Of a DNA stretch of 35,095 bases, positions 2,795 through 11,856 are shown piece by piece; position 1 is the first letter of the stretch; every line of letters begins with the position of its first letter. The stretch covers positions 1 to 35,095 of the forward strand of contig JAUIGH010000004.1 of the NCBI GenBank assembly GCA_030429935.1, given 5' to 3'. Position numbers and translations under genes: made by a program. Below the pieces are notes generated by a model, which saw only the letters and a list, made by a program, of their open reading frames with translations, did no database searches and was not told the origin of the DNA. This DNA is from a bacterium (GTDB lineage: Bacteria; Patescibacteriota; Saccharimonadia; Saccharimonadales; Saccharimonadaceae).

Positions 2795-3363
2795 GACCTC
2801 AACGCCTCCGTGATGCGTTGGTTCGTCGGCAGCGAGGTGTCGACACCTTCGAGTGCTTTTGTGGCATCGGCCAGCGTGTAGCCGAGCGCCATCAGAGCTT
2901 CGAGTGCTTCGTCATTGGTGTTCAGCTCGGTTTGGACGGCGGCCGTCTGCTGGTAGTGGGTCGGCAGGCCGACTTTGTCAGCCAGGTCGACGACGACGCG
3001 CTCAGCGGACTTTTTACCGACACCACTTGCGCGCTGAATAAACGCCACGTCACTATTTGCGATAGCGTTTCGGACTTGTTCAGCTGTACCTAGTGACAAT
3101 ATCGCCAGCGCGGCTTTTGGGCCGATGCCTTGCACGGTAATCAATAATTCAAATAACTTTTTAGCGGCTAGACTACTAAAGCCGAACAATTCTTCGGCTT
3201 GTTCGCGCACATGATGATACGTATAAAGCTTGACATCGGTATCGAGTGTCAGCGCATCGTAATCACCAGCTGGTACAGCAACTTCATAGCCAACGCCTTG
3301 CACATCGACGATCACGCTACCAGCAAATTTTTCGGCCACTACGCCGCGAATATGGGCAATCAT
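2791..3363 (-). CDS. ruvA: Holliday junction DNA-binding protein RuvA
   Basis: MIAHIRGVVAEKFAGSVIVDVQGVGYEV, YHHVREQAEELFGFSS, GIGPKAALAILS, GVGKKSAERVVVDL. Confidence 0.96.
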   Translation of the reverse strand: MIAHIRGVVAEKFAGSVIVDVQGVGYEVAVPAGDYDALTLDTDVKLYTYHHVREQAEELFGFSSLAAKKLFELLITVQGIGPKAALAILSLGTAEQVRNAIANSDVAFIQRASGVGKKSAERVVVDLADKVGLPTHYQQTAAVQTELNTNDEALEALMALGYTLADATKALEGVDTSLPTNQRITEALRS

Positions 3364-3382
3364 ATTCTACCAGTATAGCAAA

Positions 3383-5743
3383 CTACTGATTGTCTTCCGG
3401 TGGTTCAACAGGCAGACCTGAATCACTCGGATCAGGCTCTTCCTCTTCGGGCGGCTGACAGTTGTTGATGTTGCGCGAATGCAGCTCTGGATCGAACTCA
3501 TCTTCGTTGATAGTGATGACTTCACCGGTGGCAGTATCACAGACTTCGATAGTTTCTGGCTCGTCTTCACAGTCCGATAGGTCATGTGAATATCGGTCCT
3601 CGTCGTAGTCGTCTTCGTCGATTTCAACGACTTCTTGATCGCGCAGACGACAGACTTCGATTGGCTCTGGTTCTTCTGGTGTGCACGTCTTGGTCGGGAG
3701 GGCGCTCGATAGATAGAACTCGCGGTACGTGCCTTCACGAATATCATTTGTCGCGATACCGTAATTGCTCAGACAGGTCGACCGCTCGACGACGCTGGAC
3801 GGTCGAGAGAACTGCTCGTCCGCCGTACCGCTCAGGCCTTGCGCCATGGTATTGAGCCAAATCGGACCAGCCATGCCAGAGCCACCATTGAGCATCGGTT
3901 CGTTGTCGTTGTTGCCGACCCAGATACCAACCGCCAAACTCGGCGTGTAGCCGATTGTCCAGGCATCGCGGTTTTCGTCGGTCGTACCAGTCTTTACCGC
4001 TACGGTGCGACCAGGCACGTTGAGACTGCTGCCAAATATCGGCGCCCGAGCCGAAGCGTCTGACAACACATCCGAGATCAAAAACGCGCCGCCCTGAGAA
4101 ATCGCTTGTGAGGTGTCTTGTTCGGCCGTAAAGATTTCGTTGCCGAGTTTGTCGTCGATGCTTTTGACGTAAATCGGGCTATACTGTTTGCCTTGGTTGG
4201 CGAACGCTGCGTAAGCATTCGTCATGTCCAGTAGCGTGGCTTCGGCTGCACCAAGTGATAGTGCGAGACCGTAGTTGTTTTCTGATTGGATCGTGTCGAT
4301 GCCCAGCTGGCGTGCCGCGTTGACTGAATTTTCGACACCATAATCTTGCATGACTTTGACGCTCGGGATATTGAGCGATTGGTTGAGTGCGTCGCGGACA
4401 GTTACTTGACCACGGAAGCCGCCGTCGGCGTTGCGCGGCGAAAAGCCATTGATGTTGATTGGTTCATCGACGTAGGTGGTTGCAGGCGTGATCTTGCCTT
4501 CGGCCATGGCAGCTGCGTAGTAGATCGGTTTGAAGCTGGAGCCAGGCTGACGAGCTGTTGTCACCATGTTGACTTTACCAAAATCGTCATTGGCATAATC
4601 GACGCTACCTGCAAGAGCGCGGATTTCGCCAGTTGCCGGGTCGATCGCGACGCCACTCGCGTTGCTGCCGCCATTGCCTTCGATAAAGCTAATGTGATTC
4701 TCGATATTGTCGTTCATCTGACGTTGCAATTCGCTGTCGAGCGTGGTCTGGACACGGTAACCGGAGCGCATGACTTGCTCGTAGCCGTATTCCTCGGACA
4801 ATTGCTGCGTCACCATCTCGACGAAGTGCGGCGCGATCGACTCGTTGTCGTCTTGCTCAGCGTAGCTGAGTTTTTGGTTGAGCGCGTTCGTGTACTCGGC
4901 ATCTGTAATATAGCCTTCATCTTTCATACGATTGAGCACTGTGGTCTGGCGCTGTTTGGCGTATTCAGGGTTGCCGCTAATTGGTGAATAGGCACTCGGT
5001 GCCGGCAAAATACCGATCAACATCGCGCTCTCAGCCAAGTTGAGCTCAGCCGGCGTCTTGTCGTAGTATGTCTCAGCAGCATCTTCGATACCGAACGAAT
5101 TTTCACCGTAGTAGACCGAGTTGAGGTACATGGTTAGGATTTCGTCTTTGGTGTAGTTTTGTTCGATGGCGATCGAGATGAACAACTCTTGATATTTGCG
5201 CAAATAGCTGCGTTCTTTGGATAGCAGCGTGTTTTTGGCCAGCTGCTGCGAGATTGTCGAGCCGCCACCATAGCCAGTGATGGCTGCTCGTCCGATGGCA
5301 AAGATATTAAAACCACTGTGCTCGTAAAATTCTTGGTCTTCGGTCGCAATCAACGCGTTTTCGAGCGTGTCTGATATTTCATCGAGTGGCACGAGGTTAC
5401 GCTCCTCGGCTGTACCTATGCTATAAAACGCCTCACCTTCGCGGTCGAGGAACACCACGCCGGTGTTGTTGCGATTCATCAAACGCTCTTGGTCTTTGAT
5501 GTCATTGGCAAAGTAAATGTAAGTTGCTATTGGCACAATGATCAAAAACGCCAGAATCGGACCGCCGATCAGCGCGGTCTTTTGCTTCCATGACAGTCCG
5601 CGGAACCACGCAACACGCCCACCGACGAACTGACCGAACTTGCTCTGGCCCAACCGAGAGTTCGCCAAGCGCGACTGTGTCTTTCGTACGCGAGCACGCG
5701 CACGGCGCTGTTTGGTGAATCGACTGGTTTTTCGGGTATTCAT
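3383..5743 (-). CDS. Class A penicillin-binding protein (transglycosylase/transpeptidase)
   Basis: ALIATEDQEFYEHSGFN, GGSTISQQLAKNTLL (GT51), RQPGSSFKPIYYAAAM and VKTGTTDENRDAWTIGYTP (transpeptidase); acidic Cys-containing C-terminal extension. Confidence 0.95.
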   Translation of the reverse strand: MNTRKTSRFTKQRRARARVRKTQSRLANSRLGQSKFGQFVGGRVAWFRGLSWKQKTALIGGPILAFLIIVPIATYIYFANDIKDQERLMNRNNTGVVFLDREGEAFYSIGTAEERNLVPLDEISDTLENALIATEDQEFYEHSGFNIFAIGRAAITGYGGGSTISQQLAKNTLLSKERSYLRKYQELFISIAIEQNYTKDEILTMYLNSVYYGENSFGIEDAAETYYDKTPAELNLAESAMLIGILPAPSAYSPISGNPEYAKQRQTTVLNRMKDEGYITDAEYTNALNQKLSYAEQDDNESIAPHFVEMVTQQLSEEYGYEQVMRSGYRVQTTLDSELQRQMNDNIENHISFIEGNGGSNASGVAIDPATGEIRALAGSVDYANDDFGKVNMVTTARQPGSSFKPIYYAAAMAEGKITPATTYVDEPININGFSPRNADGGFRGQVTVRDALNQSLNIPSVKVMQDYGVENSVNAARQLGIDTIQSENNYGLALSLGAAEATLLDMTNAYAAFANQGKQYSPIYVKSIDDKLGNEIFTAEQDTSQAISQGGAFLISDVLSDASARAPIFGSSLNVPGRTVAVKTGTTDENRDAWTIGYTPSLAVGIWVGNNDNEPMLNGGSGMAGPIWLNTMAQGLSGTADEQFSRPSSVVERSTCLSNYGIATNDIREGTYREFYLSSALPTKTCTPEEPEPIEVCRLRDQEVVEIDEDDYDEDRYSHDLSDCEDEPETIEVCDTATGEVITINEDEFDPELHSRNINNCQPPEEEEPDPSDSGLPVEPPEDNQ

Positions 5744-10089: not shown

Positions 10090-10129
10090 AAAGCAAAACG
10101 TCCATCCGAATGGACAGACATTTTGCTTT
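10090..10129 (-). terminator. Long imperfect hairpin with TTCG loop between tRNA-Lys and comEC
   Basis: Minus strand AAAGCAAAATGTCTGTCCATTCGGATGGACGTTTTGCTTT folds into a bulged stem. Confidence 0.5.
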
Positions 10130-10132
10130 GGA

Positions 10133-10205
10133 GGGGCCACTGGGGCTTGAACCCAGGACACCCTGCTTAAAAGGCAGGTGCTCTAACCAGCTGAGCTATG
10201 GCCCC
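10133..10205 (-). tRNA. tRNA-Lys (anticodon TTT)
   Basis: Minus strand GGGGCCATAGCTCAGCTGGTTAGAGCACCTGCCTTTTAAGCAGGGTGTCCTGGGTTCAAGCCCCAGTGGCCCC gives a full cloverleaf; no encoded CCA. Confidence 0.96.
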
Positions 10206-10208
10206 GTT

Positions 10209-10281
10209 TTACAGGAGAGGCTTACCTCTCCAGCTCGCTTTGAAATAAATTCAAAGCCTCGCCTCCTCACCCTAAAGCTCG
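10209..10281 (-). repeat. Two-hairpin structured repeat, copy A
   Basis: Minus strand CGAGCTTTAGGGTGAGGAGG...GCTTTGAATTTATTTCAAAGC...GGAGAGGTAAGCCTCTCC; similar to copy B. Confidence 0.65.
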
Positions 10282-10358
10282 GGCAAAGCCCTCGTGCCAT
10301 CGGCATACTCGCTACAGCGAAAAGACTCTTAAAAATGTATCAAAATAGAGGTGAAAAG

Positions 10359-10838
10359 TCAATGCTTCCGGCCAGCGGTGCGGTGTTTTTTGTGATACAC
10401 CACGTCGATCAGCGCCAGAATAATACAGACGGTGATAATCGCGTTGTCATACGGCAGCAGCTGCAGCACCACGCCTTCGCTCATGGCATCGAGCACGACA
10501 GCATTTGCAAATGCGCCATAGGTCAACATGACGGCCAGCGCGCCAAAGACAATACTGCCGTAGATCTGATGACCGAGCGAGTGTGCTTTGGTGGCACGTG
10601 TCATGACAATCAGCGCCGGCAATAATGTCAGCGCAACCGCTACGATGCTATGGAGCGGCGGCACCTCGACGACGAACCCCGCATCTGCCACCAGCGGCGT
10701 CAACGAATCGGTCCACAGCCGCGCCAATACAGCGCCGGCCGTCAATCCCAGTGCCGGCATGCCGATATGCCGACGGCTCAGGAAAAACACACCAGCCAGT
10801 GCCGCGAAATAAAACCCAAGAACGATCAAAAAGGTCAT
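10359..10838 (-). CDS. Small multi-TM membrane protein, unknown function
   Basis: 159-aa hydrophobic ORF directly downstream of an extended -10 (TGCTATACT). Confidence 0.6.
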   Translation of the reverse strand: MTFLIVLGFYFAALAGVFFLSRRHIGMPALGLTAGAVLARLWTDSLTPLVADAGFVVEVPPLHSIVAVALTLLPALIVMTRATKAHSLGHQIYGSIVFGALAVMLTYGAFANAVVLDAMSEGVVLQLLPYDNAIITVCIILALIDVVYHKKHRTAGRKH

Positions 10839-10874
10839 GCTATCAGTATAGCAGTCAAACCACTATCGAGCAGA

Positions 10875-10948
10875 GCGAGCTTTAGAGGTGAGAGTAATTT
10901 TGCGAATTCATTTCGCGAAATTGCGGGAGGGTTGACCCTCCCTATAAC
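10875..10948 (+). repeat. Two-hairpin structured repeat, copy B
   Basis: GCGAGCTTTAGAGGTGAG...ATTTTGCGAATTCATTTCGCGAAAT...GGGAGGGTTGACCCTCCCTATAAC. Confidence 0.65.
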
Positions 10949-10950
10949 TA

Positions 10951-11856
10951 TCACGCGCCAATCTTGTCTTTGCGTGGCTTGCGCTTGGCGTTCATCTCGA
11001 CGTATTCGATGATCTTTTCGGCGACGTTGCGGCCAGTTATCAGCTCTGGCGTCTTGATACTCGCGCTCGAGTTGACTTCGAGCACCAACGGACCGCGTTC
11101 GCTGCGCATCATGTCGACACCACAAATCGGAAGACCCATAGCTTTGGCAGCTTTGATCGCCGTCTTTCGTTCTTCGTCGGTCAGTTTGACTTTTTGGCCT
11201 TCGCCGCCCTGGTGGGTATTACTACGGAAGTCACCATCTAGACTCTGGCGTTTGACGCTGGCAACCACGCGACCACCGACGACGAGAGCACGGATGTCAG
11301 TGCCGGCCGATTCTTTGACAAATTCTTGGACCAAAAAGTTTACACCCTCGACGTAAAATGCCTGCATTACGGCTTTGGCGGCCTTGGCGGTCTCGGCTAA
11401 TACCACGCCGTTGCCGTGGGTGCCTTTGGCGACTTTGATGATCAGCGGAGCACCGCCGGCTAGCTCGACGATATCGTCAAAGCTCGCTGATTCGCGGGCA
11501 AACACGGTCTTTGGGATGCCGACGCCGGCTTTTGCCAATATCTGATAAGCGCGTAGTTTGTCGCGTGAGCGATTGATAGCCAGGCTGCTAGCCGTCGAGT
11601 ACGAACCTTGTGATTCAAACTGGCGCACGATGGCCGTGCCGTACTTGGTGTAACTCTGGGCGATGCGCGGGATGATGGCATCGTATTTGTCGAGTGTTTC
11701 GCCCATGTAGCGCACTTGATTATTGTTGGCTTCGACTGCCGTATATGCGTCTTTGTACTTGATGACGGTCACATCGTGACCGCGTTTGAGTGCTTCTTCT
11801 TTGAGCCGTTTAGTCGTGTAGTTACCTGGTCCGTTACTGAGTATCGCGAGTTTCAT
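10951..11856 (-). CDS. RimK-type ATP-grasp amino-acid ligase
   Basis: MKLAILSNGPGNYTTKRLKEEALKRGHDV, PLIIKVAKGTHGNGVVLAE, FVKESAGTDIRALVVGGRVVASVKRQ, PLVLEVNSSASI. Confidence 0.9.
   Translation of the reverse strand: MKLAILSNGPGNYTTKRLKEEALKRGHDVTVIKYKDAYTAVEANNNQVRYMGETLDKYDAIIPRIAQSYTKYGTAIVRQFESQGSYSTASSLAINRSRDKLRAYQILAKAGVGIPKTVFARESASFDDIVELAGGAPLIIKVAKGTHGNGVVLAETAKAAKAVMQAFYVEGVNFLVQEFVKESAGTDIRALVVGGRVVASVKRQSLDGDFRSNTHQGGEGQKVKLTDEERKTAIKAAKAMGLPICGVDMMRSERGPLVLEVNSSASIKTPELITGRNVAEKIIEYVEMNAKRKPRKDKIGA

Follow-up and report, generated by a model that had tools for sequence, protein, structure and literature searches.

A three-hairpin palindromic repeat of Saccharibacteria, probably mobile, lies between genes and in frame within conserved genes

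In this work, we describe two inverted repeats, A and B, contained in a 35,095-nucleotide stretch of Saccharibacteria DNA, hereafter the window (contig C57 of an 823-kb genome, G000, assembled in 66 contigs and about 88% complete). The two repeats are probably copies of a non-autonomous palindromic element of Saccharibacteria, similar in behaviour to the Rickettsia palindromic elements (RPE) and spread by copy-and-insert. Both were recovered where the initial annotation had placed them, and they match each other. The relevant features of the window are the following:

10129..10205, minus strand: tRNA-Lys gene (TTT anticodon), its mature end 8 nt past the H3 end of copy A
10213..10296, minus strand: element copy A, from CACGAGG at 10296 (H1 side) to CTCCT at 10213, the last T falling just after H3
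10281-10291, minus strand: hairpin H1 of copy A
10277, minus strand: start of the CTTTAG block of copy A
10237-10257, minus strand: hairpin H2 of copy A
10214-10231, minus strand: hairpin H3 of copy A
10359..10838, minus strand: gene for a 159-aa membrane protein, resident between A and B, with no Pfam match
10865..10943, plus strand: element copy B, with the architecture of copy A
10880, plus strand: start of the CTTTAG block of copy B
10894-10924, plus strand: hairpin H2 of copy B
10925-10942, plus strand: hairpin H3 of copy B
10951..11856, minus strand: RimK-like ATP-grasp gene, its stop codon a few nt past the H3 end of copy B

Copy A lies between the 3' end of the 159-aa gene and tRNA-Lys, and is probably transcribed as part of the tRNA-Lys leader; copy B lies immediately upstream of TGCTATACT, the -10-like sequence of the 159-aa gene.

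The repeat unit is about 82-90 bp long and contains three hairpins, in the order H1, CTTTAGGGGGWGGAG, H2, H3. H1, conserved in the family, is a short variable stem (GGGC-TTT-GCCC in copy A, GC-AGA-GC in copy B), set within a CGAG...CGAG frame; the block CTTTAGGGGGWGGAG which follows is nearly invariant; H2 is a free stem closed by the core GRATTYAYTYC, and H3 has the form GGAGGGG-4 nt-CCCCTCC. The initial annotation had described the block, the AT-rich hairpin H2 and the 7-bp GC-rich hairpin H3, all of them present in both A and B, but its two-hairpin design overlooked the upstream H1, a feature absent from the single-sequence minimum-energy folds of the two copies. Single-sequence folding gave z = -6.1 for copy B and z = -2.3 for copy A.

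Compensatory change in the stems, originally proposed from A and B only, is borne out by the family at large. Across 125 distinct copies, whose alignment (A3) was fitted to the structure and is hence biased towards it, double-sided pair changes occupy 391 cells, against 104 expected (0 of 500 shuffles), and standard pairs make up 92.9% of the pair cells, against 75.4% in shuffles; sliding of the partners abolishes the signal. A set of 20 copies aligned with MAFFT alone already has double changes in 13 of 18 pairs. As it is the pairing of the stems, and not their letters, that is kept, the fold is probably the recognition target of the copying machinery. Pairing conservation of this strength is atypical of purely selfish DNA, leaving room for a function.

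BLAST searches with copy A returned matches in other genera, with E-values down to 5.6e-15, eight of them in one genome. A first covariance model, based on 20 copies, showed the window's genome to contain at least 5 copies, and identified as carriers 30 of the 151 genomes of its family, where the copy number per carrier ranges from 1 to at least 24, and 28 of 245 genomes of the class; copy counts are lower bounds, few candidates having been scored per genome. A second model, R2, trained on other genomes only, with nothing from the window's genome, scored copy A at E=2e-20 and copy B at E=1e-14, and also recovered three further copies in the same genome (contigs 39, 35 and 32). More copies thus exist both in this genome and in its relatives, where the initial annotation had recommended a covariance-model search, and chance similarity is ruled out. 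A strict family pattern, run over GTDB with one genome per species (85,462 species), was matched only in Saccharibacteria, Patescibacteria and unnamed MAGs; viral contigs gave 0 matches with this pattern, which yielded 36 stretches in genomes. No curated Rfam family matches the element, and the open-access literature searched contains no description of such elements in Saccharibacteria or Patescibacteria.

The distribution is patchy, with copies arranged in tandem in places and clear empty sites. Tandem arrays are found near contig ends in one genome, G020 (L153, L155, L156, L157, L158, L057), where H2 modules are common to copies whose H1 and H3 loops differ, pointing to recent amplification and exchange among copies; G020 is probably the most active host. 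An extra hairpin, CGGATCTTAGATCCG, takes the place of the CTTTAG block in these arrays.

Relatives suitable for a comparison of sites A and B were found through RimK, and the empty sites that the initial annotation had suggested looking for were identified at both. At site A, the tRNA-Lys of G126, G112 and G044 is preceded by a plain spacer of about 40 bp; site B is without the element in G089, G019, G112, G017 and G069, where the 159-aa orthologue comes directly after rimK. Neighbouring genes are unchanged at the empty sites. G126 features an element at site B, at an equal distance from the rimK stop, with different stems. In G112, G017, G069 and G044 the 159-aa gene is found at the same place with neither repeat present: the gene is therefore not a cargo, and the idea that A and B bound a cassette is refuted.

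Site A contains only unrelated sequence in G019 and G089. In G089 (L193, about 3223-3470, reverse strand) the intact tRNA-Lys is preceded by a decayed tRNA-Lys copy, interrupted by the small palindromes CCCGCCTGCC...GGCGGGCAGG; the 159-aa gene is followed by additional sequence. In G019 (L194) the spacer before tRNA-Lys holds about 100 bp of unrelated, hairpin-rich sequence.

The ends of the element are best estimated from the region upstream of dnaX, where G137 has ACGAGCC...CCCCTCCT (82 bp) and G019 has 31 unrelated bp instead; no target duplication is seen in this pair. The element has no terminal inverted repeats, its ends ACGAG and CTCCT not being mutually inverted, and short direct repeats at the ends are in no excess over permuted flanks, a few long gene-end duplications aside. 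Short target duplications, also sought at the suggestion of the initial annotation, were thus not found at the element ends. An apparent nested insertion is found in G137:C1 (L165, about 45908-46090), where the H3 loop of a copy is interrupted by a different hairpin-rich sequence, about 85 nt long; the G019 orthologue is without it.

Fourteen distinct copies are located within long conserved ORFs, in frame and stop-free, in both orientations. They are antisense to the gene in fpg (G126, G137, G138 and G088) and mnmA (G156 and G020), and sense in gltX (G018, G066 and G088); topA is occupied at two different sites, in G018 and G088, and single copies are found in der (G093), tilS (G018) and recJ (G018). 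Homologues of these genes are present in most relatives without the insert. Gene names were assigned from recognisable sequence; for Fpg, comparison with solved MutM structures served as a check: the two conserved blocks on either side of the insert are about 57 residues apart, versus about ten in the solved structures. In the AlphaFold2 model, of moderate confidence overall (mean pLDDT 70), the Fpg insert (87-118) forms a loop between strands, predicted with low confidence. The fpg genes of G137 and G019, 87% identical at the DNA level, form a filled/empty pair with a difference of 102 bp, a net 34 codons. On the fpg tree the insert of this family requires at least two state changes, gain and loss being indistinguishable; a single gain without loss was accordingly rejected.

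The in-gene search demanded an open frame, so that in-frame insertion is partly built into this set; a separate search for gene-splitting copies found none, and non-genic copies have 0.67 of 3 sense frames open, against 0.70 in shuffles, showing no coding pre-adaptation. The simplest reading is therefore that gene-breaking insertions are removed by selection.

The same protein sites also host palindromic families unrelated to the one described so far (family 1). A second family, of sequence GGGGCAGCACCC ... AGGGGCGGAC ... GACAGGACC, is found in frame within the fpg loop of G020 and G018:C41 (L239, L242) and the gltX loop of G002 and G153 (L255, L259). A third one occupies, again in frame, the fpg loop of G002 and G156 (L247, L250), with 98.5% identity over 135 bp between these genomes, which belong to two genera.

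Junctions on the H3 side of family 1 follow a pattern, which could result from targeting or from selection. In 10 of the 125 copies a tRNA end (six 5' ends and four 3' ends) lies 6-12 nt beyond H3; no tRNA end lies 13-109 nt beyond H3, and the 120 nt next to the H1 side contain none. Two orthologous copies adjoin rnpB in like manner, and -10-like hexamers are about six times commoner in the first 10 nt past H3 than farther out. Copies adjoin the ends of tRNA genes and rnpB, and none was seen within an intact RNA gene. These junctions, together with the strong covariation and the conservation of orthologous copies between G019 and G137, would suit a conserved cis-acting RNA element, recruited many times, whose fold acts in each transcript, for instance in processing, in protection or as a leader preceding tRNAs and downstream genes. 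We regard this reading as unlikely, since copies are found in unrelated ORFs in either orientation, the same sites are empty in most relatives, copy numbers in a single family span 0 to at least 24, and Rfam holds no corresponding family.

In the preferred reading, a non-autonomous element spread by copy-and-insert, copying would be carried out by a trans-acting enzyme on a folded strand, or by template switching during replication, in machinery which probably recognises the element's fold; selection would retain only those insertions that leave genes, promoters and tRNAs functional, and a benefit for the host would not be required. Sites occupied in several genera (fpg, gltX, mnmA, the lepA 3' end and rimK) could reflect either old insertions followed by losses, or recombination.

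Y1, reverse transcriptase and TnpB genes were considered as possible sources of the mobilising enzyme, and none of these candidates was identified as such; reverse transcriptases show no association with carriers. For Y1 the case is that of REP/BIME repeats mobilised by a RAYT (TnpA-REP) transposase, which would be in keeping with the hairpins and tandem copies, and 9 of the 30 carriers have Y1 genes, as against 18 of the 121 non-carriers (p = 0.06). However, the surroundings of 30 sampled Y1 loci, to about 1.5 kb, contain no copy, and no Y1 match was obtained in G020 and G162, two of the highest-copy genomes, or in the window's genome, as far as its about 88% completeness extends. The transposase link raised by the initial annotation thus finds no support, and this origin appears improbable. 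Intrinsic transcription terminators of similar shape are a still poorer candidate, to be given little credence: the 7-bp GC-rich H3 is found near gene ends, but in most copies no U-tract follows it, the unit includes two more hairpins and a conserved block, and copies occur upstream of tRNAs and within ORFs. A mobile omega-RNA, or IS200/IS605-type ends served by TnpB, can practically be dismissed, since the small, hairpin-rich element recalls them but the TnpB domain PF07282 has 0 matches over the cut-off in the 151 genomes of the family.

Among known systems, the closest are the RPE, described in the accounts of Ogata et al. (2000, 2002) given in PMC10969869 and PMC2229807 as palindromic repeats of about 100 bp, both intergenic and in frame within conserved genes, with several families per lineage and a mobiliser that is unknown; they are also reported inside RNA genes (tmRNA and RNase P RNA), and Wolbachia palindromic repeats are cited alongside them. 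The Saccharibacteria element likewise lies both between genes and in frame within conserved genes, and several families coexist in the lineage. In contrast to RPE, it belongs to an unrelated host group, has three hairpins with conserved blocks of their own, and features many tRNA-adjacent junctions and some gene-end duplications. It works as an RPE, but is not an RPE member by sequence, from which the taxon range of the strict-pattern scan sets it apart.

The initial annotation had envisaged a REP/BIME-like or MITE-like family. This holds as regards a dispersed, multi-copy, patchy and partly tandem repeat with empty sites, but neither class is supported in the strict sense. Like enterobacterial REP/BIME with RAYT, the repeats are small, palindromic, dispersed and sometimes tandem; unlike them, the unit is longer, copies are often within genes and no Y1 gene lies beside copies. 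RUP, Correia and ERIC, listed as MITEs in a table of PMC2229807, are comparable as small non-autonomous repeats able to fuse with ORFs, whereas neither terminal inverted repeats nor a short target duplication were found for the Saccharibacteria element. The coding palindromes of nematomorph mitochondria (PMC6649704) are also hairpins in protein-coding genes, gained or lost between species, but they are single perfect inverted repeats of up to 142 bp per arm, while the Saccharibacteria elements are short-stemmed and share a family signature.

In-frame palindromic selfish DNA has been described from Rickettsia and Wolbachia, its spread being still unexplained. Saccharibacteria offer a second, unrelated case, in which close filled/empty pairs (fpg and the region upstream of dnaX) make the insertion mechanism testable. 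The seeming lineage-specific loops of Saccharibacteria Fpg, GltX, MnmA and TopA can, moreover, derive from the element, which calls for caution in annotation. A bolder proposal, which we put forward tentatively and hold to be doubtful as a whole, is that Saccharibacteria host independent, multi-family protein-coding palindromic elements, whose insertion is directed by folded-strand recognition to exposed boundaries (tRNA and rnpB ends, -10 boxes and gene 3' ends), through a copying mechanism undescribed in any bacterium. If true, boundary-directed insertion would account both for the H3 junctions 6-12 nt from tRNA ends and for the gene-end duplications.

In some cases where the element lies at the 3' end of a gene, a duplicate of that gene end, 60-110 bp long, is present on the far side of the element. 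Such duplicates are found at lepA in G018, G112 and G088, with a short one in G020 (lepA loci L046, L175, L132 and L152), and at two genes in G248 (L094, L189). Between the two lepA ends of G018 there are about nine differences, all of them synonymous; the two had thus probably diverged before being joined, and recombination with foreign DNA fits this case better than simple duplication. In appearance, the gene-end duplicates resemble an attachment site or a recombination scar.
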